DNA from: Dethiobacter alkaliphilus
Lineage (GTDB): Bacteria; Bacillota; Dethiobacteria; DTU022; UBA8154
Reading direction: 5' to 3'
Assembly (NCBI GenBank): GCA_016841605.1
Contig: JAENYV010000016.1
Location: 1-64,000 of the forward strand
DNA length: 64,000 nucleotides
Shown here: positions 47,962 to 63,192 of the stretch, piece by piece
How the letters are laid out: each line of letters opens with the position of its first letter
Position numbering within the stretch: position 1 is the first letter of the stretch
Program-made: the position numbers and the translations under genes
The notes under the pieces: generated by a model
Database searches by the model: none
Told to the model about the DNA's origin: nothing
What the model saw: the letters and a program-made list of their open reading frames with translations, nothing else

Positions 47962-48732
47962 ATGACTGCTTTGATGTGGATACAGGTATTAACACATATT
48001 TTCCTATTTGTTCTAGGACTCGTAATAGGCAGTTTTCTTAATGTAGTGATTCATCGCTTCCCGCGCCGGGAATCACTCATCAGGCCTCGCTCCTCCTGTA
48101 TCCATTGTAAAACAGCCCTGCAAGTTTCCGACCTTTTTCCTCTCTTCAGCTTTATCGCTTTAAGAGGGCGTTGCCGCTACTGCGGAGCCCGGATCTCCCG
48201 GCGCTATCCGCTGGTTGAACTGCTGTCTGCCTTAATCTTTATTTTTTGTCACGTTTCTTATGGATTTTCCCCCTTTTTCTTTAAGTATGCCGTCTTTTTT
48301 AGTATTCTTTTAGTTATATCTTTTATTGACCTGGACGAAAGCATTATTCCCAATCGCCTTGTCCTGCTTCTGCTGTTGTGGAGCATTGCCTGGCAGTTCC
48401 TCTACCCTGAAGTTCCGTTGACAGGTGCAACTCTCGGTTTGCTGGCCGGCGGAGGTCTATTTTTTCTCATCGCGGTCCTGAGTAAGGGTGGTATGGGAGG
48501 AGGCGATATCAAGCTGATGGCTGTCCTGGGCTTTGCAGTCGGCTGTCCCCTGGTCTTCGTAGTTTTTCTCCTCGCTTTTATCCTTGGTGCGGCTGTAGGT
48601 GTCGCTTTGTTAATCTATCGAAATAAAATGCGGCATGACCCCTTACCTTTTGCTCCCTTCCTTGCACTGGCCTTTTTTATCTCCGTTTTTTGGGGTTGGC
48701 AGATCTGGTACTGGTACACGTTATACCTTTAA
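47962..48732 (+). CDS. pilD: Prepilin peptidase (A24 family)
   Basis: A 256-residue membrane protein with about seven helices. N-terminal LGLVIGSFLNVVIHR, zinc-binding cysteine pairs CIHC and CRYC in the cytoplasmic domain, and the catalytic Asp residues in IDLDESIIPN and GGGDIKLM. It cleaves and N-methylates type IV prepilins or competence pseudopilins (ComC). A pilus ATPase gene follows after 26 bp. ATG with AGGGGGTGA. Confidence 0.95.
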   Translation: MTALMWIQVLTHIFLFVLGLVIGSFLNVVIHRFPRRESLIRPRSSCIHCKTALQVSDLFPLFSFIALRGRCRYCGARISRRYPLVELLSALIFIFCHVSYGFSPFFFKYAVFFSILLVISFIDLDESIIPNRLVLLLLLWSIAWQFLYPEVPLTGATLGLLAGGGLFFLIAVLSKGGMGGGDIKLMAVLGFAVGCPLVFVVFLLAFILGAAVGVALLIYRNKMRHDPLPFAPFLALAFFISVFWGWQIWYWYTLYL

Positions 48733-48758: not shown

Positions 48759-49301
48759 ATGAGTAATAGAGAGGATATTAATGATGGGAAAAAAAACGCT
48801 TCCAGCCGTCCTGCGACTGATGACAGCGTAATTGAAGAGGTTAATAAAATACTGCAGGAAGGAACAGTCCGCGGTGCCAGCGATATCCACCTGGAACCGA
48901 CGGAAGACGGCCTTGCCGTACGCCTGCGTATTGACGGAATGCTCTATCCCCACCACACTTTTGCCAGGGAGATGATGCCCATGATTATCTCCCGTCTGAA
49001 GATTATGGCCGGTATGGATATTGCGGAAAAACGGCTTCCCCAGGACGGCAATATTTATCTTAGTGAAAACAACCGGAAAATCAACATTCGCGTTTCTATC
49101 CTTCCCGTAATATACGGAGAAAAAATGGTTTTACGCATTCTCGATCCGGCAGGATTAATCATGCCTTTGAATTCACTTGGCTTTAACGAAGAAAACCTCC
49201 TGAACTATTTATCTATCTTAAAGCAGGCCTGTGGCGGTATGGTTCTTGTTACCGGACCGACTGCTCCCGGAACGAAACTGCGACACATCAATATTGTTTA
49301 G
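48759..49301 (+). pseudogene. PilB/ComGA-type pilus assembly ATPase, 5' part, broken by prophage
   Basis: The N-terminal 165 or so residues match GspE/PilB ATPases: VRGASDIHLEP, RIDGMLYP, ISRLKIMAGMDIAEKRLPQDG, and GGMVLVTGPT. The Walker A should continue GSGKTTTLY, but reads GPTAPGTKLRHINIV and stops at 49301. The change falls where the serine-recombinase element begins, so the 3' part should lie beyond the right end of the element. The protein lacks the long N-terminal MshEN domain, resembling ComGA-type ATPases. As it stands it cannot bind ATP. Confidence 0.9.
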
Positions 49302-50888
49302 CAACTTTATGGCCAATTCCTCAGAATCTCCATCCCAGAATACTTTGTCGATTATCGTTCGGAGATAGGTCTTCTTTTCTCTGTTAGATAGGTTATCAAT
49401 TATGCCGGCAAAGTTTAGGATATTATTTACGACAAGCTCAAAACCCTCGGTCTCTTTTTCTTTTTCCTCTTTTTCTTTTTCCAACTTGGTGATCTCCTCA
49501 TCCAGCTTTTTCACTTCCTGGTCCCTGGCTTCAATCTGCGGTAGAATGTATTTAGATGCAGCAGCACTTTTGGAGACCTCACCGACAAGATTGTTTATTT
49601 CAGCTATAAGCCGTTCTTTCTTACTTTTTAGTTCGTCCAATACATTTGCCTTGTCTGGCAGTTTTTTCTCACTTTTAAGGGCGTGCAGTTCGGCTAGGAG
49701 GGCGTCTTTAGATTCGGATAGCTTAATTAGCTTGCCGACAACAGCATTGTCAGTATTGGCCCCATTAGCATTCGTATTCTGGCATTTTTCTTTAGATATA
49801 AATTTCAAATTGCAAGTGTAATAGTGTTTGACAGTTCCGTCTTTCTTTTTTGGACCATATGTAACATTCATTGGAGCTCCGCATTTTGCGCACCGGATAA
49901 GACCGCTAAGTAGAGCAATCTCGGAAGTTCCTGACCTCGGCAATTTCATACTATTTTTATCCATCTGATACTGTACTTTCAGCCATTTTTCAGAAGATAT
50001 ATAGCCTTCGTGCTTAGCAACGGCTCCGATCCATTCGTTGAAGTCATTCTTTCCACTTTTTTTGTCTACTTTGTTGTATAGTAAAATGGCCCGTTTACTG
50101 TTAATCCTGTCCTGGCCTGCCATTGCGATGCCTTTTCCCTGAAGATATTTAAAAACTGCGTTATCGGCCTTCGCATAGACAGGGTTACGAAGAATATCGG
50201 AAATAACGTGTTTAGAATAGAAAGTACCAGTCTTGGTTGTAATATTATTTTGGATAAGAAATTTCTGGACCTGATGAATTGAGCCCAACTCCAGGTATTT
50301 ATCGTAAATGAATTCGATTTGTTGCATTTCGTCCGCGATAGGGTTCAACTTTACCAGGGAACGCTCTTTGTATTCTTCGTCGAGGTAATTGACTCGTTCA
50401 GACTCAAAGCCGAAAGGGGCAGGGCCTCCCAGCCAACGGCCCGTCTTGGCAAGTTCCAACATATTGTCCCGGACGCGTTCCGCTATGGTTTCTCGCTCCA
50501 GCTGAGCGAAGACGGAGGCAATGAACATCATGGCTCTCCCGAGGGGAGTAGAGGTATCAAATTGCTCTCTAATGGAAACGAAGGAAATGCCATGGCTCTG
50601 AAGCTCTTCAATGAGGGAGGAGAAGTCGGCAATATTTCTGCTAACCCTGTCCAGCCGGTAGCAAATTAGGACGTCAAATTTCTTGCTTTTTGCATCCTGG
50701 AGCATTTGCTGGAAGCGGGGCCTGTCCACGTTGCCACCGGAAAATCCTTCGTCTTCGTAAATTGTATATTCTAAATCCGAAGGGCCGCAGTGTTTTTCGG
50801 CATAGTCCCGGCACATTTCTATTTGATTTTCGATGGATTCACCTTTACCGGTGAATTTTGATTTACGGCTGTAGATAGCTATTTTCAT
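49218..50888 (-). CDS. Large serine recombinase (site-specific integrase)
   Basis: A 556-residue integrase. N-terminal resolvase domain MKIAIYSRKS with the catalytic Ser in SRKS, ICYRLDRVSRN and the downstream Arg region; recombinase domain (about 160-300); a zinc ribbon CAKCGAP...YYTC...C (about 355-400); then a long coiled coil (about 420-500). It integrates the element without host factors. Start ATG 50888 gives the family N-terminus; the frame opens at 50930. Its last ~11-14 codons run across the junction into pilB DNA, so the C-terminus differs between integrated and excised forms. Confidence 0.95.
   Translation of the reverse strand: MKIAIYSRKSKFTGKGESIENQIEMCRDYAEKHCGPSDLEYTIYEDEGFSGGNVDRPRFQQMLQDAKSKKFDVLICYRLDRVSRNIADFSSLIEELQSHGISFVSIREQFDTSTPLGRAMMFIASVFAQLERETIAERVRDNMLELAKTGRWLGGPAPFGFESERVNYLDEEYKERSLVKLNPIADEMQQIEFIYDKYLELGSIHQVQKFLIQNNITTKTGTFYSKHVISDILRNPVYAKADNAVFKYLQGKGIAMAGQDRINSKRAILLYNKVDKKSGKNDFNEWIGAVAKHEGYISSEKWLKVQYQMDKNSMKLPRSGTSEIALLSGLIRCAKCGAPMNVTYGPKKKDGTVKHYYTCNLKFISKEKCQNTNANGANTDNAVVGKLIKLSESKDALLAELHALKSEKKLPDKANVLDELKSKKERLIAEINNLVGEVSKSAAASKYILPQIEARDQEVKKLDEEITKLEKEKEEKEKETEGFELVVNNILNFAGIIDNLSNREKKTYLRTIIDKVFWDGDSEELAIKLLNNIDVSQFRSGSSRSGNKNHTATGLL
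49245..49280. other. Left attachment junction (attL) of the prophage
   Basis: pilB homology is good through ACCGGACCGACTG (about 49251-49263) and lost immediately after. A large serine recombinase reads toward this point from the right. Integrases of this class cross over at a 2-bp core, which should lie in or near this segment; the exact dinucleotide cannot be set without attR. Confidence 0.7.
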
Positions 50889-51085
50889 ACGAACACCTCG
50901 TTTATACAGAATGAAAGCAAGTATGGTCAAGTTGGTTTAACAATTATAGTAAATGAAGTTTTAAGAAAAGTAATTAGCATTTAATTTGTAACTTTTATAA
51001 ATTCTTCCCTAATACATAGAAGGATATATTAGATTTATATAGAAGTAAATACCAAAAATATATGTAATGCAATGCGAGGGAAAAT

Positions 51086-52165
51086 ATGTTAAGATTACAA
51101 GACATATTGTATTTAAGCGATTTTACACGTTTACCTAAAAATCTTCTAAAAGATATTTGCACTGAGCTAAATATGGAAAGCAATGGCTCCCTATTCGATC
51201 TTGGAGAAAAAGTCTATAACGAATTAGAAGATAATTATAGTACAGTAATAGAAATGTGTGCTGACAAAATTTTTTGCGGAAAGACTGCTGCTACATGGTA
51301 TAAATTCGATCAAGATAGTTTAGGTAATCTAGACAGTTTACAAAGCGTAATTACAAAAAATTTAGGTTTTAACCCATTTGAGGATATTAAACTACCGCCA
51401 AAAGAGGAACTGTCAACACAGCCGCAAATTATTAGCGGGATAGTTGGCCAACAAAACGATTGTTTCTTAAGATTTATTGTAAAAAATGGTATAAGAAGAG
51501 ATTATTATGGTTCAAATTCTGAAGCTGTTGTGCAACCTGAAATTATTACAGCATACATTGATATTAATAATGGAATTATAGAAGTTCGTACAGACTCAAA
51601 GAAAGCAAACAAAGTAGCAGAGTCTTTTGTACGAGCTATAGGTCAAACAATATCATTAAATCACAGTACTTTGCTTGCCCCTTTTGGCAATAATGTAGAA
51701 AATTTTGCTGACGCACTTAAGGGTGAATTAATTGATGCTACCTCAAAGCCAGAGTTATTATTAGAAAATTTTACAGAAGAGCAAGGTCAAGCGGTTGTAG
51801 ACATTTTGATTGCTCTTGAAAATTATTTTGAAGAAGATGATATAGAACAATTGCAAATTTGTCTACAAGATGCAAATAATAAGTTCGGCGCACATATTGC
51901 TACTGTACCGTTTAGAGCGTTGATATTGACTGGTATGGAAAAGGTAGGCATGGGAAGCCTCAGAGAATTAAGAGGAATGCCTTTATATGATTGCTTTAAA
52001 CCTTTCTTACAGCATCAGGGAGGATATATCGCATTTCCCTTTACACATGCTGGAATAGAAAGTGCATATACTATTAGAGTAGGATTAACTACAAACAGTA
52101 TATATTTTAGCACACCAGCGAATGAAGAGATACTTCGATTTGTGAGAGAACAGCTTTTTGTATAA
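51086..52165 (+). CDS. Unknown cargo protein, 359 residues
   Basis: Not recognised. A soluble-looking, acidic protein without signal peptide or membrane helix and no familiar catalytic motif. The middle (about 125-190) contains YIDINNGIIEVRTDSKKANK, which reads as a beta-rich domain; the C-terminal ~110 residues end GGYIAFPFTHAGIESAYTIRVG. It is AT-rich and the first of three co-oriented genes between the integrase and the repressor region, the usual place for lysogenic cargo (defence, exclusion or fitness genes). The ATG follows GAGGG. The 197-bp gap before it, shared with the integrase, presumably holds divergent promoters. Confidence 0.75.
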   Translation: MLRLQDILYLSDFTRLPKNLLKDICTELNMESNGSLFDLGEKVYNELEDNYSTVIEMCADKIFCGKTAATWYKFDQDSLGNLDSLQSVITKNLGFNPFEDIKLPPKEELSTQPQIISGIVGQQNDCFLRFIVKNGIRRDYYGSNSEAVVQPEIITAYIDINNGIIEVRTDSKKANKVAESFVRAIGQTISLNHSTLLAPFGNNVENFADALKGELIDATSKPELLLENFTEEQGQAVVDILIALENYFEEDDIEQLQICLQDANNKFGAHIATVPFRALILTGMEKVGMGSLRELRGMPLYDCFKPFLQHQGGYIAFPFTHAGIESAYTIRVGLTTNSIYFSTPANEEILRFVREQLFV

Positions 52166-52186
52166 AATCCATAGGAGGTTCTTTCT

Positions 52187-52636
52187 ATGCGATGGAAAGA
52201 AAAAAGAAAAATCGAAAAGTTTATTGAAACCATCGCATTCAGCGCCATTAAAAGATTTTATCCAACAGCTGTTGCAAAGCACACAGGTATACCTGTTGAT
52301 GAAGTGTTTCAGCTATTATTAGAGATGTGCGAATCTGGACAACTTAAACTAGTCTGGGAAGTAAGATGTCCAGGCTACAATTGTGCTCGAACCTTAGTAA
52401 CATTTACAACCAAAGAAAACCCTCCAGTGGAGTATTTTTGTTCTACATGCGGCGAGAATATAGAAATTGATAACAGTAATATTTTCCCAGCTTTTGAGGT
52501 AGCAGAGGAGTTTCGTGATTATATAAGAGAAGAAAGTAAAAAAAAAAATCTCTTAAGGTTGAGGGTAGTTTTATTGACTTGGTTGGCCCCCCTATCCCTG
52601 TTAGCTCTTTGGGTTTCGGTTTTTCTCCAGGTTTAG
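52187..52636 (+). CDS. Winged-helix/zinc-ribbon protein with C-terminal membrane helix
   Basis: A 149-residue protein. Residues about 10-55 look like a winged helix (AVAKHTGIPVDEVFQLLLEMCESGQLKLVW); two cysteine pairs follow (CPGYNC near 63-68 and CSTC near 85-88), a likely zinc ribbon; the last ~20 residues are hydrophobic (VVLLTWLAPLSLLALWVSVFLQV), a possible tail anchor. Function unknown. ATG 52187 has AGGAGG. It begins 21 bp after the previous gene, so the two are probably one operon. Confidence 0.7.
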   Translation: MRWKEKRKIEKFIETIAFSAIKRFYPTAVAKHTGIPVDEVFQLLLEMCESGQLKLVWEVRCPGYNCARTLVTFTTKENPPVEYFCSTCGENIEIDNSNIFPAFEVAEEFRDYIREESKKKNLLRLRVVLLTWLAPLSLLALWVSVFLQV

Positions 52637-52710
52637 AAAACATTATCAAAAATAAAGATGTTATAATTTTTGTGCAAATGGTAAATGGGATGGTTAATGG
52701 AGGGATTAAT

Positions 52711-53025
52711 ATGGGAGATAGAAAGATAGAAAATAGTTTTAATCAAGCAAACATTAAAGGAACGAATGTGCAGGGAGATAATGTTCAATTAGACTATAAT
52801 GAAGGAATTCCAACGGAATTGTTTCAGCAATTAATGCAAGATATAGGAAAAATAAAAGATGAAGAAAAAAAGGAATTAGCAAAGCATTTTGCAGAAGAAA
52901 TTCAAAAAGCCGCATCTGAAAGAAATTTTGATAAAGCTAAAAAGGGATTAAAATGGCTTTCGGGAATTCTCACGACTACAGCTTCATTAGCTAGCATTGC
53001 AACTTTTTTGGGAATTGTACTTTAA
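52711..53025 (+). CDS. Small protein with NxxGxNVQGDN motif and C-terminal membrane helix
   Basis: 104 residues, unknown. The N-terminus has Asn/Gly-rich repeats (SFNQANIKGTNVQGDNVQLDYN), then a helical charged segment (about 35-80), and a hydrophobic C-terminus (about 84-104). Such N-rich starts joined to helices and a membrane segment are seen in several phage-encoded and NTPase-associated proteins, but I cannot name the family. ATG 52711 has GGAGGG 6 nt before; the frame opens at 52579, overlapping the previous gene. Confidence 0.65.
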   Translation: MGDRKIENSFNQANIKGTNVQGDNVQLDYNEGIPTELFQQLMQDIGKIKDEEKKELAKHFAEEIQKAASERNFDKAKKGLKWLSGILTTTASLASIATFLGIVL

Positions 53026-53229
53026 GATTAAAATACCAGCTTTTCCATCAGTTGCAGATTCCTTCTCATTAGAAGCCAGGTTAATCACAAAAGGATCCTC
53101 GGCTTCCAAAAAAATAGCTGCCATGAAGGCCCTGGAGAGTAAGATGGAGACCGGGCTGGAGAGGAAACACTTAACCCACTTAAATAAATTTACAACCGTT
53201 GAAGAAAAACGAATATGTAATCAATAACT

Positions 53230-53481
53230 TTAATTTATTTCCCATATTCCTTTAGGAGTACTATCGGCTGGTTTTAAAATACCTTTTTTCCTTAACTGAG
53301 TTGCCTGCCATCTGATACGGTACTGCCAGGTAAAAAACAAGTCTCCAGACTTACGCAATTCGCTTTCGTAATTATTCCAAACATATTTACAAATTTCTAC
53401 TAATGATGCTCTTCCCCCATAATATCTTAAAGCTTCAATTATCATGTTACTCAGGTCATCCATGGTAATCATATTAAGCAT
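53230..53481 (-). CDS. Small winged-helix protein (Mrr N-terminal-like)
   Basis: An 83-residue protein resembling the winged-helix N-terminal domain of Mrr-type restriction proteins: MIIEALRYYGGRASLVEICKYV, then YRIRWQATQLRKKGILKPADS and a final GIWEI. No nuclease domain follows, so it is a free-standing DNA-binding domain or truncated. The ATG is close behind AGGGGG; internal ATG at 53472 is possible. The 204 bp between it and the cargo operon hold no convincing gene. Confidence 0.6.
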   Translation of the reverse strand: MLNMITMDDLSNMIIEALRYYGGRASLVEICKYVWNNYESELRKSGDLFFTWQYRIRWQATQLRKKGILKPADSTPKGIWEIN

Positions 53482-53487
53482 GTCCCC

Positions 53488-53640
53488 CTAAGCTTTTTTG
53501 CCCTTCTTCTTCAACTTCTCCAGCAACTCCCCGATCTTTTCCTGCTGCTTCATTTCGCCCTCCGGATCCAACTCAAAGTTCACATCCAACCAACTACCCT
53601 CGCGGGCCTCAGGGGGGGGGGAGGAGCTGCCGGGGACGTT
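53488..53640 (-). pseudogene. C-terminal remnant of an unknown gene
   Basis: On the minus strand an open frame without start codon reads VPGSSSPPPEAREGSWLDV, continues acidic, and ends in a Lys-rich helix (LLEKLKKKGKKA) with a stop at 53488-53490, 6 nt before the winged-helix gene. It is GC-richer than both neighbours and begins right after the stop of the 53640 gene, so it may be the tail of a gene whose 5' part was replaced. A G10 run interrupts it. Confidence 0.4.
53612..53621. repeat. Poly-G tract (G10)
   Basis: Ten consecutive G on the plus strand within the remnant. Such tracts slip during replication; length may also be a sequencing artefact. Confidence 0.8.
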
Positions 53641-54149
53641 TATAATTTAATAGTTAATCCCTCACCAATACATTCAATCAGCACTTTCATAATATAATCC
53701 AGATTTTTTCGTTGATATGGATTTCCCAATTGTTTCATAAGGATTTCGGCCAAGGATAATCTATGCATATTTTTACCGTCAAAATTATCATAATGGCAGA
53801 TAAATTCATCTGCTAAAATTTTTATTGCTTTTCTAATTGTTAAGTCAGATTCTTCGTAGAATTCCTCGTTTAACATGTCATCAATCTTTTTTGCTAACAA
53901 TTCTTCTCCAACCTTTCGTAGTAATATTTGTACTGTATAATTATTTTTGTTCCTTTCGCTTTCAATGCACATTGCCCGAAGCTGTACGACAATAATATCC
54001 AAATATGTAATAACATCAATATCTTTATTACCAAATGTGTTAATTTCTCGAAATCTCTTATACCTCCTGAGCAAAAGTGCAAAGTGAACATTAAAATTCT
54101 TAATATACTCCATTAAACGCAATTGTTCTGCATATGTCTCATCATCCAT
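53640..54149 (-). CDS. Hypothetical protein, 169 residues
   Basis: Not recognised. An all-helical, AT-rich protein without membrane segments; features include YIKNFNVHFALLLRRYKRF near the N-terminus and DEFICHYDNFDG in the second half. It has no clear enzyme motif. It starts 18 bp after the ImmA-like protease gene in the same direction and lies in the lysogeny cassette, so it is probably another moron gene. Confidence 0.65.
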   Translation of the reverse strand: MDDETYAEQLRLMEYIKNFNVHFALLLRRYKRFREINTFGNKDIDVITYLDIIVVQLRAMCIESERNKNNYTVQILLRKVGEELLAKKIDDMLNEEFYEESDLTIRKAIKILADEFICHYDNFDGKNMHRLSLAEILMKQLGNPYQRKNLDYIMKVLIECIGEGLTIKL

Positions 54150-54167
54150 TACCTATCCATCCTTTCT

Positions 54168-54590
54168 CTACTCTCCCCAATATACTTTTACAAGCTTGGC
54201 AGGCACCCTGCTTCTGGCTGCATAATTTTCAACCGTTTCTCCATATTCCGGAGGCTTGTCCATTAGAAGCATTGCCGCAAAAAGGTCTGCTTCGCGTTCA
54301 TATCGCCCTGGGACAAAATAAGTGTTTTCTTTAATAAAGAAATAACCGACATTCGCAGGGTGAAGCTCCTTGTGGCCGATTTCGTGAGCGATGATGGCTC
54401 GCTTTTCCGGTTCCGGCAGATTAGCTTTAACTCCGATAATTTTTCTCCCATTCAAATAGAAGATAAGTCCCCGAATTTTTTTAAAAGCATATTCAAATAC
54501 CTCAATACCCAGGTAGTCCGCCAATTCATGCGGGCACCTGGTTTTATATTTTCGAATTAGGCGGCTTACAGAATTTTTAATATGGCTCAT
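54168..54590 (-). CDS. ImmA/IrrE family metallopeptidase
   Basis: A 140-residue protein with the zinc protease motif HEIGH (about residues 68-72) preceded by EKRAIIA and followed by YEREADLFAAMLLM, which supplies the third ligand. In ICEBs1 and phages, ImmA cleaves the CI-like repressor to induce excision; the repressor gene is two genes upstream. That makes this the likely anti-repressor of this element. Confidence 0.9.
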   Translation of the reverse strand: MSHIKNSVSRLIRKYKTRCPHELADYLGIEVFEYAFKKIRGLIFYLNGRKIIGVKANLPEPEKRAIIAHEIGHKELHPANVGYFFIKENTYFVPGRYEREADLFAAMLLMDKPPEYGETVENYAARSRVPAKLVKVYWGE

Positions 54591-54725
54591 AAAATCACCT
54601 GTCGGTATTTGTATTTTTTTGTCGAAAACTTTATAAAGTAGAAAAACTACCTTGCGGTAGTTATTTATAATTTTAATGATTAAATTTTTGCAGTATCATG
54701 ACAACTCCGTTCTGTTTCTTTCCGA

Positions 54726-55466
54726 TCATTCCCCGCTCTTTATCTTTGAAGCTTTTTTCTTTAGCTTTTCAATTCTACCCTTAAATCCGTTTTTTGTTTT
54801 GTCTATTAAACCGTAGCTTAAGGCCAGGTTGCAGATTTCTATTGCTTCTTTATATCGACCTTGATTTTCATAAATAATCACAAGCCTTTGAAAAGAAGGA
54901 ACAAACAGATTAAAGGTAACGGATTCAGCCTTTTTTAATATTCTTTTTCGTTCAGATTTATTATATAGTGGGTTGTTAGCTTGTTTTATAAATCTATCTT
55001 TTTCCTCTTTGAGGTATTCTTCTTTAAATTCAGGAAATTTTATAATATCTTCCATACAATATTTTATACATCTTTCAATCCATTCTGGGCCTTCGTTTCT
55101 TCGTTTATAGCACAAATCAATTAAACTATTATATGTAAAATGCAAATCAACTTGATTTTTATTTGTTCTCAAGGCTTCTTCTAACAATTTGTCAGCAAGC
55201 TCATATTTCTTTTTACTAATGGCCCAAACCGCATAATTGCTTAAAAATCCAGAATCTGATTGGGTTGTCGAAGCCTCAACCTTTGGATTATCTAAATGCT
55301 TTGAGTTAAGGCCACCCAGAGAAGAAGCGTAGCATTCCTTAATAAATTCTCGCTCTTCAGGCAACAAAGATTCCCAAAATTTTTCTAACTTAAGGAAAGC
55401 AATTATGCCGCCGTATTTCTTCTTCGGGTCTTTTGGCTTTTTCCCAAACAACCTACCTAACACCAA
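54726..55466 (-). CDS. TPR-like hypothetical protein in lysogeny cassette
   Basis: About 246 residues with helical TPR-like repeats: NYAVWAISKKKYELADKLLEEAL and IIYENQGRYKEAIEICNLAL. TPR/Rap-like proteins in mobile elements can bind repressors or signal peptides, but no peptide gene is seen. TTG 55466 is 6 nt after AGGAG and avoids overlap with the repressor gene; ATG 55496 overlaps its end by 22 bp and lacks a site. Between this gene and the protease is a 135-bp gap with nothing clear. Confidence 0.7.
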   Translation of the reverse strand: MVLGRLFGKKPKDPKKKYGGIIAFLKLEKFWESLLPEEREFIKECYASSLGGLNSKHLDNPKVEASTTQSDSGFLSNYAVWAISKKKYELADKLLEEALRTNKNQVDLHFTYNSLIDLCYKRRNEGPEWIERCIKYCMEDIIKFPEFKEEYLKEEKDRFIKQANNPLYNKSERKRILKKAESVTFNLFVPSFQRLVIIYENQGRYKEAIEICNLALSYGLIDKTKNGFKGRIEKLKKKASKIKSGE

Positions 55467-55474
55467 TATCGCTC

Positions 55475-55828
55475 CTATTTTTTCTTCCTCTTCCATACCA
55501 TCTTTAGGAAGCCTAATATATCTTCTTTATCTTCATCGTCCAGGGGGGCACCGTCAAATTTCACGTTACTATTTCGAAGGAATTCTTCAAGTTCAGCGTC
55601 GGTGGGTTCGTCTGGGATGGATTCGTTGCGATTGTTGGTACGGCCTAATAAATAATCTGTGCTGCAGTTAAAATAATCTGCAATTTTTTGAAGAGTTTCA
55701 TGATCAGGGTGTGCTCTTCCTACCTCATAATGGCCTATTGTTTGTTGAGATAAACCAATAATCTTACCTAATTGTTTTTGAGTTATATTTTTTTCATTTC
55801 TTAGCTTTTTTAATCTTTTTGGAAGCAT
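55475..55828 (-). CDS. CI-like XRE repressor
   Basis: A 117-residue protein with an N-terminal HTH (NITQKQLGKIIGLSQQTIGHYEVGRAHP) and an acidic C-terminal tail, without a LexA-type peptidase domain. This is the ImmR pattern, in which an ImmA protease rather than autocleavage inactivates the repressor. ATG 55828 follows AAGGGG; the frame opens at 55846. It is divergent from the Cro-like gene across a 150-bp operator region. Confidence 0.88.
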   Translation of the reverse strand: MLPKRLKKLRNEKNITQKQLGKIIGLSQQTIGHYEVGRAHPDHETLQKIADYFNCSTDYLLGRTNNRNESIPDEPTDAELEEFLRNSNVKFDGAPLDDEDKEDILGFLKMVWKRKKK

Positions 55829-55864
55829 ATCGCACCCCTTCTGCACTTAATAATACTATTTCTA

Positions 55865-55953
55865 TGAGTATTTGAAAAGAAATTACTCAAAAAATCAGTA
55901 AAAAGGGTTGACTTACTCATATGCTGAGTATATAATTAATACGAAATTACTCA
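55865..55953. promoter_or_regulatory. Divergent lysogeny promoters with TACTCA/TGAGTA operators
   Basis: Rightward promoter: TTGACT (55908-55913), TATAAT (55931-55936), 17-bp spacer. The spacer is filled by a perfect inverted repeat TACTCA-N5-TGAGTA (55914-55930). Further copies of the half-site lie at 55865-55870, 55884-55889 and 55948-55953. A repressor bound at the central site would block the rightward promoter. Confidence 0.8.
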
Positions 55954-55981
55954 TATTGTTAGTTAGAGGTGGTGAAAAACA

Positions 55982-56215
55982 GTGCCCGTAATTAGAAACA
56001 ACTTGATTAAAGCAAGAGGCAAAAGGACGCAATCTGAAATAGCTAACCTCTGTGGCGTTGAACAACAAACGTATTCTCATTGGGAAAGAGGACGTTCAAA
56101 GCCGTCTATAGAGAAAATGTTGCTGATAGAAAAAATATTAGGCGTTCCTAAGGAAGAACTTTTTTTTGATATTTTTAACTCACAATATGAGTTAAAAACC
56201 AAATCCACCGCCTAA
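55982..56215 (+). CDS. Cro-like XRE protein
   Basis: A 77-residue HTH protein (RTQSEIANLCGVEQQTYSHWERGRSKP) starting from GTG 55982 after AGAGGTGG. It is the first gene rightward of the operator region and is presumably the early-switch regulator. The C-terminus has no extra domain. Confidence 0.85.
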   Translation: MPVIRNNLIKARGKRTQSEIANLCGVEQQTYSHWERGRSKPSIEKMLLIEKILGVPKEELFFDIFNSQYELKTKSTA

Positions 56216-56227
56216 AGAGGTGCCCAG

Positions 56228-56275
56228 ATGGATATATGCCGCAGTTGCCCTAACAACCCTAATAGGAAGCACTAA
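56228..56275 (+). CDS. Possible 15-residue Cys-containing peptide
   Basis: ATG 56228 is preceded by AGAGG at a proper distance and encodes MDICRSCPNNPNRKH. The CxxC and good ribosome site are the only support. It could be a leader peptide after the Cro-like gene, or chance. Confidence 0.25.
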   Translation: MDICRSCPNNPNRKH

Positions 56276-56339
56276 GCGAGCCTATTCCGGAAGGGTCAAA
56301 TCTCGCAGAAAACCTCGTGCCAGATGAGCTAAAACCTGC

Positions 56340-56600
56340 TTAGCTGATTGTGTATCGTTTCCAAGGTATACGACCGGGATGTATGTTCGCAAGAAATTTA
56401 ACAATATCGTTTTTGCCCTGATAAGTTGGAATACCGCGTGAATCTTGTGCCATTAAAATAATTGGCATACCCGGAAAAACGGAAGAAAGAGAACGTCTCA
56501 TATTGCTAGCTGCAGCAGTATTGCTGATTACATGGGATTTTACTACAACGACAGCAAAGGTAACACCCTGTTCTTTAATAACAGCACCATCAATTTGCAT
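56340..56600 (-). CDS. Hypothetical 86-residue protein
   Basis: Not assigned to a family. The fold looks alternating beta/alpha: VTFAVVVVKSHVISN, PGMPIILMAQDSRGIPTYQG, and DIVKFLANI. The ATG follows AAAGGTGG. It is transcribed with the second repressor gene, 22 bp downstream of it. Confidence 0.6.
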   Translation of the reverse strand: MQIDGAVIKEQGVTFAVVVVKSHVISNTAAASNMRRSLSSVFPGMPIILMAQDSRGIPTYQGKNDIVKFLANIHPGRIPWKRYTIS

Positions 56601-56622
56601 TTAAAATCGCCACCTTTCAGAT

Positions 56623-56862
56623 TTACTCATCATACTCAGCATTAATGAGGGGAGGGAAGTCAAAAAAATCAACTATAGAAATACCCAGACCGTTAGAAAT
56701 TTTCATAAGCGTTACAAGCTGAGGGTTACGACTCTTACCCTTCAGTATGCTGTCGATAGTGGACTGAGTAACGCCGGACAGAGTAGCAAGACGGTTAATG
56801 CTGACGCCCTTTTCCTTGCAAAGAACTTCTATTCTTTTGGCAATAGCTTTAGAAATATGCAT
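56623..56862 (-). CDS. Second XRE family repressor
   Basis: A 79-residue HTH protein (VSINRLATLSGVTQSTIDSILKGKSRNP) close to small Firmicute repressors. It is divergent from another HTH gene at 57009 and shares an operator region with perfect palindromes. A second immunity-like switch in the same element is unusual. Confidence 0.85.
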   Translation of the reverse strand: MHISKAIAKRIEVLCKEKGVSINRLATLSGVTQSTIDSILKGKSRNPQLVTLMKISNGLGISIVDFFDFPPLINAEYDE

Positions 56863-56921
56863 GTCCTACCTGCTTTACCGAAATATCGTTATTTTTAGTT
56901 TAACAGAAAATATTTAAAAAA

Positions 56922-56986
56922 TTAACGATATGTCGTTGACAAATGAAAAATATTGGTTTAATATGAAATTAACGATACATCGTTAA
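56922..56986. promoter_or_regulatory. Second divergent control region with TTAACGAT palindromes
   Basis: Rightward promoter TTGACA (56936-56941) and TAATAT (56959-56964), 17-bp spacer. A perfect 18-bp palindrome TTAACGATACATCGTTAA is at 56969-56986, and a related site TTAACGATATGTCGTTGA at 56922-56939 overlaps the -35. Confidence 0.8.
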
Positions 56987-57008
56987 TTTGAGCGGAGGCA
57001 AGTATCTT

Positions 57009-57221
57009 ATGTTTGGAACAAAAATGCGTTACCTGCGAAAAAAAATAAAACTGTCACAGCAGAAACTGGGAGAGGAGATAAACATTCCTCAAACCACAAT
57101 TTCTGACTGGGAAAACAACAAATACCTTCCCAATATCAATGAGGCCGTTAAGCTTGCTGCTGCTCTAGGTGTTTCCGTTGCAGAGCTAATAGAACAACCA
57201 AAGGATACAAAAACCGCCTAG
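57009..57221 (+). CDS. XRE family regulator (second Cro-like)
   Basis: A 70-residue HTH protein (IKLSQQKLGEEINIPQTTISDWENNKYLP). ATG 57009 lies 11 nt after GGAGG; the frame opens at TTG 56988. It starts the rightward early operon of small genes, downstream of the palindromic operators. Confidence 0.85.
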   Translation: MFGTKMRYLRKKIKLSQQKLGEEINIPQTTISDWENNKYLPNINEAVKLAAALGVSVAELIEQPKDTKTA

Positions 57222-57234
57222 CGAGGTGATCCAC

Positions 57235-57444
57235 ATGCCGAAAAAAAAATCCAAAATCAAAAGCTGCATTATCCTCAACCCTCCGGCGACCCCGAAAGAG
57301 CAGAAGGCGTTCCAGCAAAGGTCCGCTAAAGCCCTGGCGCTGGCCCTCTATCGGTCGCTAAGCCCGGAGCAGTTCGATGCCTTGATAAGGGCGCTGGAGG
57401 CAGACCTGGGGAGAGAAAAGCAAGAAAGGAGGGACGCATCGTGA
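57235..57444 (+). CDS. Small phage early protein
   Basis: 69 residues, unknown. A basic N-terminus (MPKKKSKIKS) and a helical tail (SLSPEQFDALIRALEADLG). ATG 57235 follows GAGGTGA. Overlaps the next gene by 4 bp. Confidence 0.6.
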   Translation: MPKKKSKIKSCIILNPPATPKEQKAFQQRSAKALALALYRSLSPEQFDALIRALEADLGREKQERRDAS

Positions 57445-57629
57445 ACCAAAACAAAGGGATGCAAACAGCGGAACTAATATTGGGAACAAAACTAACAGTA
57501 AACGATCTAAAAAATGCTATCTGGGACTGCAATAACGGTCTTGTTCCAATTGGCGGCATGCCGCCAGAGTGGTATCGTAACGAGCTGTTCAAGTTGACCG
57601 GCGAAACAAAAGGCTATCACGAAATGTAA
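57441..57629 (+). CDS. Small phage early protein
   Basis: 62 residues, unknown; GTG start after AAGGAGG, contains PEWYRNELFKLTGE. Tight spacing with its neighbours and strong ribosome sites support translation. Confidence 0.55.
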   Translation: MNQNKGMQTAELILGTKLTVNDLKNAIWDCNNGLVPIGGMPPEWYRNELFKLTGETKGYHEM

Positions 57630-57654
57630 ACCCAAACCGCCTAAGGAGGCTCCC

Positions 57655-57828
57655 GTGATTTCTAAAATCGTCCCCAATATCCCCAAAATTGTTCCTAAGG
57701 TATCAGAGCTCCCTGAGGGCATGACTCAAAAAGATCTGGAGAATGCATTATATCCAAATCTGCTTGCTCTGGCCCGGATTTTCGCCAGGCATGAAATAAA
57801 GGAAAGAGAAAGGAGGTCCGCCGTATAA
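57655..57828 (+). CDS. Small phage early protein
   Basis: 57 residues, GTG start 57655 with AAGGAGG at 57643-57649. The N-terminus has a repeated Ile-Val-Pro pattern (ISKIVPNIPKIVPKV) and the rest is one helix. Unknown function; between two well-supported small genes with similar gene-start signals. Confidence 0.6.
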   Translation: MISKIVPNIPKIVPKVSELPEGMTQKDLENALYPNLLALARIFARHEIKERERRSAV

Positions 57829-57866
57829 CACCACATTCATTAAACCACTGAAAGGAGGTGATCACC

Positions 57867-58409
57867 ATGTATAAACAAGCCAGAAAAAAGACCGGACTGA
57901 GCATAGAAGAGGCGGCTTTTCAGTTACATATCGCCCCCAGAACGCTTTGTAAATATGAGTCCGATGATCCGCGAGACCCGCGGCCAAGACCGGAAACAGT
58001 TCTATCTATGGGACTGGCTTACAAGACGCCAGTACTGACCATGCTGTATTGCCGACATGAATGCGCCATTGGTCGCCGCTACTGCTTTGATGTCCTTAAC
58101 AATATTGATGTATCCCCGGTAGCCATCTTAACGAAGTACCGACATGAGAAGCGGGAATTTAACGAGATGTTGGAACGGATGACTGAGATCTTACTGAACA
58201 AGCGGGGAAAGGATGATTGCACGGAAGAGGAAATCGGGTTTCTAAAAAAGGCATTTCTTGAGGCACTTGACGTTGAGCACGTCATTGAAACATTGAAAAT
58301 CAGGCTATACGATTTTTTGGACGTAGCAGAACTAATTAACGAACATAATCAAAAATGCATTGACTGCGGTTATTATGACCCGAAGCAGCCGGCACTGCAA
58401 ATTGCTTAA
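57867..58409 (+). CDS. XRE-type HTH protein, 180 residues
   Basis: An N-terminal HTH (TGLSIEEAAFQLHIAPRTLCKYE) followed by a helical region and a C-terminal segment with KCIDCGYYDP. A transcriptional regulator of the early region is likely. ATG 57867 follows AAAGGAGGTGATC, one of the strongest ribosome sites here; the frame opens at 57858. Confidence 0.75.
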   Translation: MYKQARKKTGLSIEEAAFQLHIAPRTLCKYESDDPRDPRPRPETVLSMGLAYKTPVLTMLYCRHECAIGRRYCFDVLNNIDVSPVAILTKYRHEKREFNEMLERMTEILLNKRGKDDCTEEEIGFLKKAFLEALDVEHVIETLKIRLYDFLDVAELINEHNQKCIDCGYYDPKQPALQIA

Positions 58410-58458
58410 AAGAAAGGCAGCTTAGAAAGAGAAAAGGGAAGGGGGATGGAGACCGACA

Positions 58459-58728
58459 ATGAAAAACGTCACCGCCGCAACATCTGCAACCACCGTAACC
58501 AACGCCACCGCTGCAACCGCATCCGTAAACGCCCTCGACGCCGAAACCTGGTGCAACGACTGCGGAATACCGCTTGAAGAAAGCCAGGAGTGCCCGGCAT
58601 ATAAGAGGCTGTATCAACTGAGAGACGGACTTAGGGAGATTCTGGAAACGGTGGGGGTTGAGCTGAAGACGCGGGATGGGGTGAATGTGATAATCGTGGA
58701 TAAGGACGGCCACGAAGTGGGGCTGTAG
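58459..58728 (+). CDS. Small phage protein with Cys cluster
   Basis: 89 residues. The first 25 are Thr/Ala-rich low complexity; the rest has WCNDCGIPLEESQECPAYKR, a possible metal site, and a charged C-terminus. Unknown function. A competing frame from ATG 58446 overlaps the start; codon and residue pattern favour this frame. Confidence 0.55.
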   Translation: MKNVTAATSATTVTNATAATASVNALDAETWCNDCGIPLEESQECPAYKRLYQLRDGLREILETVGVELKTRDGVNVIIVDKDGHEVGL

Positions 58729-58781
58729 ATGAATTTGTTATAGGGGAATTTGCGAGAAAAAGGGAAGGAGCTGGCGCAAGA

Positions 58782-59174
58782 ATGGAAATGCACAAAATTG
58801 CCGAGCTGTGCAGGGGGCTGGCGAAACATCATCGCCAAAAGGCCGAGCAGGCAGATCCAGACAGCCATATTTGCGGATATAACTTTGGAAATGCCGCTGC
58901 ATTTGAAATGGCGGTCGCATGGCTTGAAAAAGCTCTGAGCGCCGAAAAAGGGCATATTTTCGAGAACGACAATGGAAAGCGGTATTTTGTGGTGACAGGT
59001 GACGATCAAGAAGCGTTATTGCGGGATATGGACAGGGGCGGGTACGTGATCGCCAGAGGACTAGACTGGACGAATATGTGTTGGAGAGGCGGAAGCTATT
59101 TTGGAGCAAACGAGTTTGAGGTTGCAGTAAAAGCTTTTCTGGAAGAAAGGAGGGACGAGGAGCAATGCGAGTAG
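58782..59174 (+). CDS. Hypothetical phage protein
   Basis: 130 residues, unknown. Helical N-terminus (MHKIAELCRGLAKHHRQKAEQ) and a C-terminal alpha/beta part (YFVVTGDDQEALLRDMD). In-frame ATG at 58788 is an alternative start. Its end overlaps the next gene by 10 bp. Confidence 0.6.
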   Translation: MEMHKIAELCRGLAKHHRQKAEQADPDSHICGYNFGNAAAFEMAVAWLEKALSAEKGHIFENDNGKRYFVVTGDDQEALLRDMDRGGYVIARGLDWTNMCWRGGSYFGANEFEVAVKAFLEERRDEEQCE

Positions 59175-59407
59175 CGGTAAGACGAGTAGCAGTAGGAATA
59201 GCAAGCTTCAAGGGCAGCAACCGTGACTTCAGGGCCTGGCTCCGGGAGCAGAGAGCCGGGATGACGAGGAGCCTGGTCGGTGAGCTGGTGGCGGCGGTGG
59301 AGAGCGGGAAAGTGGTGGCGTTAGCGGAGTACAGAGCAAAAATAGCAAAGAAAAAAGCCGCGAAGAGAGCGGCTATGAGAAAATTCACTAATCCCAGTAT
59401 AGCATAG
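59165..59407 (+). CDS. Small basic phage protein
   Basis: 80 residues, rich in Arg, Lys and Ala (RAKIAKKKAAKRAAMRK near the C-terminus), so possibly nucleic-acid binding. GGAGGGACGAGGAG lies before the ATG inside the previous gene. Confidence 0.55.
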   Translation: MRVAVRRVAVGIASFKGSNRDFRAWLREQRAGMTRSLVGELVAAVESGKVVALAEYRAKIAKKKAAKRAAMRKFTNPSIA

Positions 59408-59444
59408 CTTTTTATTTCAAGCAACATGAGGAGGCAGAGAAAAA

Positions 59445-59792
59445 TTGGAAATTAGCAAAGCCGATTGGATGGCAGAAGGAAGAAAACGTTTCGGTGATAA
59501 TACGAATGCCTGGAAATTTCAATGTCCTCAATGCGGCAGAATTCAAAGCTACGATATTGTTCGGAAAGAGGTTGAAAATGGGACGTTTAAGCCAAAGCGG
59601 AATTTTCAAGCAGATGATAAGGGGCTCCCACTTAATCTATCAATATACGCAGAATGCACAAGCCCGAATTGCAATTGGTCTGCTTATGGATTGTTCTCTG
59701 GTCCGGTGACGGTGATATATGACCCGGATAAACCGCACGATGTGAACAGAAAAGAGAATTGCACGATGGCGTTTGAATTTGCAGACGCGTAG
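59445..59792 (+). CDS. Zinc-ribbon-type phage protein
   Basis: 115 residues with CPQCG (about 27-31) and CTSPNC (about 73-78), which together can form a zinc ribbon (VVPTBP-like proteins). TTG 59445 follows GAGGAGG. Unknown role; it precedes the recombination genes. Confidence 0.65.
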   Translation: MEISKADWMAEGRKRFGDNTNAWKFQCPQCGRIQSYDIVRKEVENGTFKPKRNFQADDKGLPLNLSIYAECTSPNCNWSAYGLFSGPVTVIYDPDKPHDVNRKENCTMAFEFADA

Positions 59793-59821
59793 TGAAAAAC
59801 AAAACCAAGGAGGAATGCTAA

Positions 59822-60304
59822 ATGGCAAAGATTGCTGAGGAGATTTTATCTCGCCTGGAGACCAATGTTTTAAAAGCAAAGTTGCTTGAGTTCCCATCGA
59901 TGATCCTGGATCAAAAGGCAGCCATCCGGACTTTGAAGGATGAATATGCCGAAAAGGAGCAGGAGCGTGCTATGCTGGAGGCTGATTTAATGACCCAGCT
60001 GTCGGCCGAAAGCGACCAGAATACCGGAAAAGCGAAGTTTTCTAACGACAAAGCCCGTCAGGCGGAGCTTCAGAAACGCAAATCAACCGACCCTATGTAT
60101 ATAGAAGCGGCCTTGGCAGCACGTTATGCCGGCCACCGCCTCAGTGAAGCTCAAGACGAGCTGGATGCCATGGCTGACAAGTTTAAAGCTTACCGATACG
60201 TAACCAAGTTGACGGCGGAGGAACTGGCTCTGCTTGCCAGCGAAGAGGCCGAAGCTGTAGAGGATCATGCCGTTTTTACAAGCAGCCATAAACAGCTTTA
60301 CTAA
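59822..60304 (+). CDS. Coiled-coil protein of the phage recombination region
   Basis: 160 residues, almost wholly helical and charged, with long heptad stretches (about 30-60 and 110-135). No enzyme motif. Its place directly before the ssDNA-binding-like and SMC-like genes suggests a recombination accessory, which is inference. ATG after AAGGAGG. Confidence 0.65.
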   Translation: MAKIAEEILSRLETNVLKAKLLEFPSMILDQKAAIRTLKDEYAEKEQERAMLEADLMTQLSAESDQNTGKAKFSNDKARQAELQKRKSTDPMYIEAALAARYAGHRLSEAQDELDAMADKFKAYRYVTKLTAEELALLASEEAEAVEDHAVFTSSHKQLY

Positions 60305-60347
60305 GATCATCGTTTCCCAAAATACTTTAAGGAGTGTGATTTTCAAG

Positions 60348-61178
60348 ATGACTGAACAAGCAGCAGTCCAAACACAGGGCCAAACATCTGTTCAGATAAT
60401 GGAACCCACGATAAACCTGCCCATGCTTTCCGACCCGGAAGAAGCAAAACTGACCATCCAGGAAAACTTGGACGGTCTGGGAGATATGAAATTCGACAAA
60501 ATTAATATGCCTTCCGGCGGCGGGATATCTTTTACCATCGTAGACGAAGACGGTAAAAAAATTCCTTTAACAGAACTGACAGGAGTGCTTTTGCATAAAA
60601 AACCTTTCAAGGCTTGGTATATCAAATCCTATGACGAAAAGGACGAGGACGATATCGGCATCCCTGACTGCTTCAGCGAGGACAATATCCATGGCAGCGG
60701 GTGCAAGGAAGCAGGTATACCGGAAGGGCAGCTTTGCAAAACATGCCCTAAAAATCAGTGGGGCAGCGATAGGCGTGGCGGCAAAGGGAAAGATTGCGCG
60801 GAAAAAATACGCATCCATATTCTTATGGAAGGCAACGCTTTCCCGAAGTTTATCGATCTGCCGCCGACATCTACAGGCAATTTCAAGGATTACGTAAAGC
60901 GGCTGGCCAACAAGCTTAACCCCTTTTACGGCGTAGTGACAACAACAGGCCTTGAATCGGATAAGTCGGACAAGGGAATTGAGTATTCCAAAACCACATT
61001 CGCCAAGGCCGCTAATCTGAGCAAGGAAGAAAAAGTCGCCATTAAGCAGTATATAGGCACAATTGAGTCGATCATGGAGCGCATTTCTCCGGAAAGCATT
61101 GCATCGGACGAAGCGGATGTTATTGATTATGTTGGCAACAGTGAAGGTGCGGCCAGTAGCGGAGAGCAGCTTTACTAG
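60348..61178 (+). CDS. Putative phage ssDNA-binding-like protein
   Basis: 276 residues. A cysteine group in the middle (CKEAGI...LCKTCPKNQWGSD...DCAE, about 123-156) could bind zinc; LPPTSTGNFKDYVKRLANK follows. The size, metal-like centre and neighbours suggest a gp2.5-type single-strand-binding role, but no OB fold can be proved by eye. ATG 60348 with AAGGAG; the frame opens at 60267 inside the previous gene. Confidence 0.5.
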   Translation: MTEQAAVQTQGQTSVQIMEPTINLPMLSDPEEAKLTIQENLDGLGDMKFDKINMPSGGGISFTIVDEDGKKIPLTELTGVLLHKKPFKAWYIKSYDEKDEDDIGIPDCFSEDNIHGSGCKEAGIPEGQLCKTCPKNQWGSDRRGGKGKDCAEKIRIHILMEGNAFPKFIDLPPTSTGNFKDYVKRLANKLNPFYGVVTTTGLESDKSDKGIEYSKTTFAKAANLSKEEKVAIKQYIGTIESIMERISPESIASDEADVIDYVGNSEGAASSGEQLY

Positions 61179-61334
61179 CAACTCTATTAAAAACTTTGCT
61201 AAAACCAGAATAGCAAAAAAACTATACAAATCCCTCTCCTGGCCGGGGGCTCTGCTCTCCCGGCTCCCGGCCAGGAAGTTTGTTTGAATCTCTGATACTG
61301 AAATATCCTTGAAAGGAAGGAGGCGCAAAAAAGC

Positions 61335-62918
61335 TTGAATCCAATTAAAAAGCTCATCATAGAAAATTTTCAAAGCCACGTAAAAACCATTATTGAACCC
61401 GCATCGGCAGGACAGCTTACGGTCATAGTTGGTCCGTCTGATTCAGGCAAAACAGTTATTTTTCGCAGTAAGCGCTGGGTTAGCAATAACGAGCCGGATG
61501 GAACAGGATTCATACGTGCCGGTGCAAATTTTTCCCGGGTAACAGAAGAGCTTGAAAGCGGTCATGCAGTAATTCGTCACAGGACAGCAGGCGGTATAAA
61601 CCGGTATATTGTCGTATCACCAGATGGAGAACGCCAAACTTTTGAAGGTTTTGGACGGGCGGCTGTGCCGCTTGAAGTTCAGGAAATAATAGGTGTTCGG
61701 CCAGTGACCATTGGCGATACAAAATTTAATCTAAACCTCGCTGAGCAGTTGGATAGTCCGTTTCTCGGCAGTTCCGTAAGCGCACCAGGAAGAGCTAAGG
61801 TTTTAGGTAAGCTTGCCGGTACCGAAGAGATAGATCATGCCGGAAAGTCATTAAATACAGATTTGCACCGCAGGAACCAAGACATAAAGCACCTGGACGA
61901 CGATCTCGATAACCTTGAAAGACAAATTAAGGTATACGAATGGCTACCGGCAGCTAAAGAAAAGATTTCTGTTTTGGAACAGCTGGTAGATGCAGTAAAA
62001 AGAGACCAGGAACGTCGGGAAAAGCTTATCAAACTGAAAGAATCCAGGCAACAGGTTGCTATTTGTATTGCAAATTCTGAAGCAGTTATCTACCGGCATA
62101 GAAACGTGGAGCTAATTGCTCAAATTGTCGTTGATGCAGAAAAAAAGAATGCACGCAAAAAGGCCGTTGAAGCACTGAAAACCACGCTGGGAAATAAGGA
62201 TTATCTGATTCTTGAATCTCAATGTGTAATTGTTCGCTGGCAGAGCATTGACCTGGCGTTCTACAACGTAGAAGAAGCCGAGTTCAAGAAAGTAAGAAGC
62301 AAGGACATCCGGGAAAAATTCCAAAAGTTGCAAGTTCTTAGCTCCGGCATTAGGCAGTCCGAAGATACGCTCAAGACCTGGAATGGTCTGCAGGGAGCAC
62401 AGAAAGCAGCATATAAAGCCGCCGAAAATCTGCAATTAAACCAGCGATTATCAAACCTGAGCAAGGCTTATGACAAGTCTATTACATCTATCTGCAGCGC
62501 TCAGGAGACTATCAAATGTCACCAAGCCTTGGCCGATGCCTCCGTATCAGCAGACAGGGCTACTGCAGTTATAGAGTCACGTGGCAAGATAGCCAAACTT
62601 AAGTCATTATACACCCAAGCAGATATTTGGGTAACTAATACTGAAAAAACCTTGCTTAAACTGGCCGGGCTTAATGATGTTGAGGCCGTACTATCCAGCA
62701 GCGTAGCAAACCTTGAACTGCAGCGTAAAGTTATTGACCTTTCCCGAAGATTAAGATCGCTTGAAGAAAACACCAGGCATTCCAGAGAAGCCGTTATGCT
62801 TCACGAGAACCGTGTGGCCGAATTGGAAGGGGCGTACCGTGATGAGCTGGTTACCCTTGGTAAGTGCCCAACGTGTGGAAGCATTGTAAATCTTGAAAAC
62901 CTTAGGGAGGTATGTTAA
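61335..62918 (+). CDS. Rad50/SbcC-like ATPase, N-terminal half with zinc hook
   Basis: 527 residues. An N lobe starts IKKLIIENFQSHVKT with Walker A GPSDSGKT (about 33-40); a long coiled coil (about 170-510) follows; the chain ends just after GKCPTCGS (about 515), a single zinc-hook CxxC. There is no Walker B or signature motif; these occur in the gene at 63193. This is the ascending half of an SMC-like protein, split at the hook. TTG start 61335 with GGAAGGAGG. The next gene's ribosome site lies within the end of this one. Confidence 0.85.
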   Translation: MNPIKKLIIENFQSHVKTIIEPASAGQLTVIVGPSDSGKTVIFRSKRWVSNNEPDGTGFIRAGANFSRVTEELESGHAVIRHRTAGGINRYIVVSPDGERQTFEGFGRAAVPLEVQEIIGVRPVTIGDTKFNLNLAEQLDSPFLGSSVSAPGRAKVLGKLAGTEEIDHAGKSLNTDLHRRNQDIKHLDDDLDNLERQIKVYEWLPAAKEKISVLEQLVDAVKRDQERREKLIKLKESRQQVAICIANSEAVIYRHRNVELIAQIVVDAEKKNARKKAVEALKTTLGNKDYLILESQCVIVRWQSIDLAFYNVEEAEFKKVRSKDIREKFQKLQVLSSGIRQSEDTLKTWNGLQGAQKAAYKAAENLQLNQRLSNLSKAYDKSITSICSAQETIKCHQALADASVSADRATAVIESRGKIAKLKSLYTQADIWVTNTEKTLLKLAGLNDVEAVLSSSVANLELQRKVIDLSRRLRSLEENTRHSREAVMLHENRVAELEGAYRDELVTLGKCPTCGSIVNLENLREVC

Positions 62919-62920
62919 CG

Positions 62921-63187: not shown

Positions 63188-63192
63188 GGACC

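Follow-up and report, generated by a model that had tools for sequence, protein, structure and literature searches.

The pilus ATPase gene pilB1 of Dethiobacter alkaliphilus was found in three pieces, separated by two prophages which are unrelated to each other and look complete. Taken as a whole, the observations are probably best explained by pilB1 being the attachment site of two temperate phages that use it as a self-serving target, with one of the phages trading the HTH domain of its integrase for a host-encoded tail upon integration. The window, i.e. the whole stretch of DNA analysed (64,000 nucleotides, positions 1-64000 of contig C4), holds the first piece of the gene, and the other two are located on contig C21 of the same genome (36 contigs, 4.07 Mb). 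The relevant host genes are:

48759 to 49261, + strand: pilB1, part 1 of 3, host DNA from codon 1 to the T of GPT (Pfam T2SSE, joined protein, homologues, synteny)
C21:20445-20780, outside the window: pilB1, part 2 of 3 (ATGSGKSTTLY...)
C21:94807-95203, outside the window: pilB1, part 3 of 3
47962 to 48732, + strand: pilD prepilin peptidase, directly upstream of pilB1 (Pfam A24_N_bact and Peptidase_A24; syntenic in the relatives G002, G014 and G001)
C21:104347-106026: pilB2, an intact second pilB, 9 kb downstream of pilB1 in the same cluster

The open reading frame at 48759-49301 encodes the N-terminal part of an ATPase of the T2SSE/PilB family (Pfam T2SSE, 5e-40). The first-pass annotation had described this protein as normal up to GGMVLVTGPT and then departing, at a serine-recombinase prophage inserted in the Walker A codons of a pilB/comGA-type gene. 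This was borne out: the protein leaves the T2SSE profile exactly at Walker A, host DNA stops at the crossover 49260/49261, and the final 13 codons of the frame are phage DNA. The far half of the gene was absent from the 64-kb window, because the prophage extends past the window end. A PF00437 search of the genome itself returned complementary pieces at C4:48819-49271 (profile positions 5-154), C21:20431-20781 (147-263) and C21:94778-95182 (254-370), in addition to an intact 559-aa PilB (pilB2), PilT and others. The expected continuation, a GSGKTTTLY-like start with PilB homology, was thus located from C21:20445 onward, where it reads T-GSGKSTTLY. When the three pieces were joined, they gave an ATPase of 411 aa with VTGPTGSGKSTTLY and no gap, comprising a T2SSE domain with a complete Walker A. 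Its best matches among solved structures were PilF, GspE and PilB. Comparison with structure chains showed that the alignment of the joined protein with 588-aa PilB chains begins no earlier than about residue 192 of these chains, and that the N-terminal PilB/GspE domain of full-length PilB is absent from it; because the match starts so late, joined PilB1 was regarded as a short, ComGA-like form.

The first break carries the marks of site-specific recombination, and the prophage found at this position is referred to as element 1:

49260 to 49261, + strand: attL crossover dinucleotide AC within the Walker A codons (common to attL and attR, centre of the inverted attP arms)
49269 to 49283, + strand: attP arm GGAACGAAACTGCGA, with an exact inverted partner at the other prophage end, just before C21:20445
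49218 to 50888 (or 50930 from a TTG start), - strand: predicted large serine integrase (Pfam Resolvase, Recombinase and Zn_ribbon_recom; integrase of phrog_95)
49262 to 64000, continuing to C4:86311, across a repeat gap of about 0.5 kb and through C21:1-20444: element 1, about 58 kb overall, assuming one repeat copy in the contig gap (PHROGs and gap analysis)
54168 to 54590, - strand: ImmA/IrrE-like peptidase (Peptidase_M78)
55475 to 55846, - strand: Cro/CI-type HTH regulator, probable phage repressor (Pfam HTH_3, 7e-19)

C4 reads ACCGGACCGAC before the break and TGCTCCCGGAACGAAACTGCGA after it, C21 reads TCGCAGTTTCGTTCCCTGCGCTAC before and AGGTTCCGGGAAATCT after, and the two share the dinucleotide AC. 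Joining the phage sides gave an attP with perfect 15-bp inverted arms centered on AC. In this attP 18 of 25 palindromic positions matched, whereas 2000 shuffles never gave more than 15. Since the halves rebuild a palindromic attP and the joined protein is complete, the break is not due to chance. The corresponding attB1 consists of the Walker A codons, with the core AC in GGA CCG AC/A GGT TCC GGG AAA. The integrase is classed as a large serine integrase from its predicted domains and from attL and attR, whose phage halves together make up a short attP, its inverted arms lying around a common 2-bp core. The integrase gene overlaps the ATPase fragment at attL. The serine integrase of phage 1 would have recombined attP with attB at the Walker A codons.

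The second break was found 112 codons downstream, where a 19-bp direct repeat, ATATGGGCGTAAAACCTTA, is present at C21:20762-20780 and 94788-94806. The tyrosine integrase of phage 2 would use this repeat as its core.

C21:20781-94806: element 2, a prophage of 74,026 bp with one repeat copy
C21:20860-21939: tyrosine integrase, adjoining the 19-bp repeat

A near-repeat (88% over 43 bp, C21:20802-20844 and 94633-94674) adjoins both ends of element 2 and possibly represents arm-type sites of the integrase. Both elements carry phage head, tail, lysis, integrase and repressor genes, and both integrases are intact. Element 1 showed PHROGs matches to terminase, portal and minor head proteins at its C4 end and, where C21 begins, to scaffold, major head, tape measure, endolysin and holin. 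Element 2 encodes a CI-like repressor, and its terminase, portal and capsid belong to families other than those of element 1. By analogy, the HTH/ImmA-like module together with the lysis genes suggests ordinary damage-type induction of element 1. Two genes beside the serine integrase (window 51086-52636; 359 and 149 aa) are possible lysogenic-conversion genes; they gave no convincing Pfam or PADLOC match, only one sub-threshold DUF5939. PADLOC gave nothing convincing for seven genes near the integrase, and its capP and AriA-like matches were taken as shared peptidase and ATPase folds.

As element 1 extends over two contigs, the pieces might have been misjoined, or C4 and C21 might be unrelated. 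The right end of C4 and the left end of C21 do lie within a 610-bp repeat, the ends of which (55 bp) also close the right side of C21 and C18. An intact copy of the repeat is found within a fibre-like phage ORF of element 2. Such an assembly artefact is nevertheless extremely improbable: both break points lie inside contigs and away from their ends, the att halves are complementary, relatives' loci bridge both flanks, the phage gene order runs on across the gap, and the same junction is present inside one 2.6-Mb contig of Clostridium sp. Cult1. We infer that the gap between C4 and C21 is closed by the repeat. The cassette of about 610 bp (C21:85593-86202, L018/L023; ends at C4:86257-86311, C21:1-55, C21:240438-240492 and C18:44085-44139) occurs in fibre-like phage ORFs at several phage loci, where it breaks the assembly, and is possibly a shuffled host-range module.

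The cluster order in the genome is pilD-pilB1-...-pilT-C-M-N-O-pilB2. In a species of the same genus (G002) and a member of the family (G014), pilB1 is intact and the locus is uninterrupted, in the order HAD, pilD, pilB1, ..., secretin-like, pilT, pilC, sigma factor, pilM, pilN, pilO, pilB2; this locus bridges the C4 flank to the C21 flank. The joined PilB1 protein was matched in 56 of 60 relatives. A match in G047:C22 (3546-4043 of 4045 bases) stops near Walker A, and was rejected as an insertion since the contig end had been reached. In the lysogen, the product of the three-piece pilB1 would at most be an N-terminal fragment without the P-loop, and for this reason the lysogen is predicted to be without PilB1 function. 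Decay of the fragments was looked for as stops and as pN/pS towards six relatives: no stop and no relaxed pN/pS was found (0.23-0.27 for joined pilB1, 0.17-0.30 for intact pairs). The lack of decay indicates that the insertions are recent, or that pilB1 is still under selection. Precise excision of both prophages at the mapped att sites would, on paper, restore pilB1 exactly.

The attP of element 1 lies inside an open reading frame, and the integrated integrase differs at its C-terminus as judged from the reading frame. In the integrated state the final 13 codons and the stop come from the host (49218 to about 49259, read antisense to pilB1), and the protein ends with the 13-residue tail RSGNKNHTATGLL. 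In the rebuilt circle the integrase frame stays open through attP and into an HTH protein at the opposite end of the integrated element, giving 693 aa from MKIAIY.

C21:19990-20394: HTH protein, opposite end of integrated element 1

Integration of phage 1 would consequently trade the C-terminal HTH domain of the integrase for a host-encoded tail. The fusion protein is presumably made, and its HTH domain may have a role. A further proposal, to which we give slightly less than an even chance, is that this family of serine integrases senses its own integration state: the HTH fusion, direct or by -1 frameshift at an A-run, would be present on the circle, cut by integration with gain of the host-encoded tail and restored by excision, the HTH domain thereby setting either the direction or the expression of recombination. 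The open frame across attP may also be a coincidence of neighbouring genes, the HTH protein normally being translated from its own start. The HTH frame of the window phage does contain an ATG 18 codons past the junction, a single open in-frame junction has a chance of about 15% by a rough estimate, and direct fusion is not universal, as three IMG/VR relatives (L149, L183 and L210) have their HTH ORF shifted to the -1 frame. In these three, however, an A8-A9 run immediately precedes the integrase stop, with the HTH frame following it. The same construction for Cult1 gave an in-frame protein of 633 aa, with the conserved linker SS..N.T.IVLY....T..K...YPEDTLG.KIRK. Linker substitutions over 19 codons were distributed 9/3/10 over codon positions 1/2/3, i.e. 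with few second-position changes, and the linkers of Cult1 and G454 have no ATG. Two IMG/VR relatives (L190, 667 aa; L196, an open frame of 707 codons) have uninterrupted single ORFs with Resolvase, Recombinase, Zn ribbon and HTH (Pfam). Coincidence is for these reasons considered unlikely. In ten records the HTH gene was found at the opposite record end, in the integrase orientation, as predicted by the circular order int-attP-HTH; most of these matches were more distant than the first two. In G454 the integrase frame closes ahead of the att site, following a T9 run. A8-A9 runs before the integrase stop are shared by many integrated distant relatives, and as the HTH ORF is found in the -1 frame wherever attP is intact in such relatives, the runs are candidates for programmed frameshifting.

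The target of the serine integrase is not confined to this genome. Clostridium sp. Cult1 has a 62-63% identical integrase in the same Walker A codons of a PilB gene, with the other PilB half 43 kb away on the same contig. The split gene, interrupted by a single element, is the only PilB of Cult1, besides which there is just a PilT. In IMGVR_UViG_2913810304_000001 it is a PilT gene whose Walker A holds the end of the integrase (63% identical); this record is trimmed at the HTH gene, and the frame across attP is unreadable there. A PilB/ComGA gene is the target in IMGVR_UViG_2901126171_000001, where the integrase is 60% identical: the 3' half of this gene forms the host flank of attR, reading GTGSGKTTTLYSALKELN on the minus strand. 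Serine integrases of 43-46% identity have other targets, among them a gene for an FAD protein (identified by eye). Among 398 sampled genomes from the phylum, one further, distant integrase (45%) turned up, indicating that the family is rare in the phylum. Only one relative of the tyrosine integrase was found (59%, IMGVR_UViG_2893925626, L252). It interrupts comEC at 4142-4684, the gene being identified by a DUF4131 domain and by reading of the sequence; comEC of the present genome is intact. In distant IMG/VR relatives of the serine integrase (L125, L130/L197), the integrase is separated by a short stretch of an FAD-protein gene from an HTH gene that belongs to the prophage next to it, and a single host gene seems to be shared by tandem prophages there as well.

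The first-pass annotation had raised a possible regulated-lysogeny switch, linking pili or DNA uptake to the prophage state. In such a switch a host cue would lead to prophage excision, restoration of pilB1 and the onset of pili or DNA uptake. The part of this proposal concerning precise excision stood insofar as GPTGSGKST is rebuilt, but the gene would still be broken by the second prophage. Exact restoration at the mapped att sites, fragments free of decay and two intact integrases would all suit a switch, as would Cult1, whose sole PilB would be restored by a single excision. In the present genome, however, two independent excisions are required, pilB2 is intact, and neither attB nor attP junctions of the excised state were found in the assembly. 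The ordinary, full lytic gene sets predict cell death upon induction, and there was no sign of conserved host control. A host switch is therefore regarded as improbable. A second intact pilB that makes this copy irrelevant had been named in advance as grounds for rejecting the switch, and an intact second copy, pilB2, is present.

Self-serving targeting is favored over a host switch because of the literature on mobile elements in comYC, comFA, comM, comK, comGA and competence genes in general. The site would be used as a conserved and dispensable target, and a broken pilus or DNA-uptake motor would protect the prophages from removal by transformation. Use of the same Walker A site in the PilB of Cult1, in PilB/ComGA and in PilT, and the position of the second integrase's relative in comEC, support this reading. 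Against it, PilB1 may not act in competence, the cluster also resembling that of a twitching pilus, and PilB2 could replace PilB1. The undecayed fragments also fit restoration by excision. Furthermore, a conserved Walker A is a good attachment site even if nothing is gained from breaking the gene. Neutral choice of a stable, widespread att site in a dispensable gene, with breakage having no selected effect, is a serious rival, albeit one that we find considerably less likely than self-serving targeting; sequence alone separates the two incompletely. A serine integrase family which hits the same codons in PilB and PilT may follow the P-loop sequence and not one gene, and its more distant members use the unrelated FAD-protein gene. 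Two unrelated integrases in one gene, the comEC relative of the second, and the enrichment of competence genes among serine-recombinase targets (PMC10083194) all speak against neutrality. Self-serving targeting is accordingly preferred, the ability of both prophages to excise and the benefit to the phage being presumed.

A prophage in a pilus or competence ATPase is of a known kind. Prophage SpST71A of Staphylococcus pseudintermedius (about 44 kb) splits comGA into a 5' part of 509 bp and a 3' part of 479 bp (PMC7029219). The likeness is that the same ATPase gene class is split; there it is one prophage and one break, whereas pilB1 holds two prophages, the first of them at a Walker A site that is also occupied in other hosts. 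Mobile elements disrupting comYC, comFA, comM and comK are argued to escape removal by transformation (PMC4774983), and competence genes are reported to be strongly enriched among the targets of large serine recombinases (PMC10083194). These elements share site-specific insertion in DNA-uptake genes with the present case; the Walker A of pilB or pilT is not among the sites named in the passages considered, nor is double occupation of one gene described in them. The earlier view that the disrupted gene class lies outside the standard examples did not hold, given the comGA prophage and the reported competence-gene enrichment. The sigK skin elements of Bacillus and Clostridioides (PMC5025042) and, as cited in PMC7029219, the Listeria comK prophage are cases of active lysogeny with demonstrated regulated excision. 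An interrupted gene that precise excision would restore is common to these and to pilB1; here two elements must leave and a paralogue is intact.

As far as found in open-licence papers, two unrelated prophages in one copy of the gene are new, as is a Walker A site common to PilB and PilT in several hosts. Double occupation of pilB1, together with the targeting of PilB, PilT and comEC in other genomes by the same integrase families, strengthens the argument that bacterial DNA-uptake and pilus machinery is repeatedly disabled by temperate phages. No attP inside a serine-integrase frame was found in the open-licence PMC papers, and to that extent this arrangement is new as well. It would be a simple route for a serine integrase to know its integration state and, if true, would bear on direction control and offer natural integrase-HTH fusions for engineering. 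The nearest analogue is mycobacteriophage BPs, where attP lies inside the repressor gene and immunity depends on integration (PMC4557955). In both cases attP is located inside a phage ORF and integration alters the C-terminus of a phage protein; BPs alters its repressor, whereas here it is a serine integrase bearing an HTH at its C-terminus that is altered, keeping its catalytic part whole and gaining a host-encoded tail. Archaeal SSV-type integrases are tyrosine integrases that are split by integration. They likewise have attP inside a phage ORF, but the catalytic part of the serine integrase described here stays whole.
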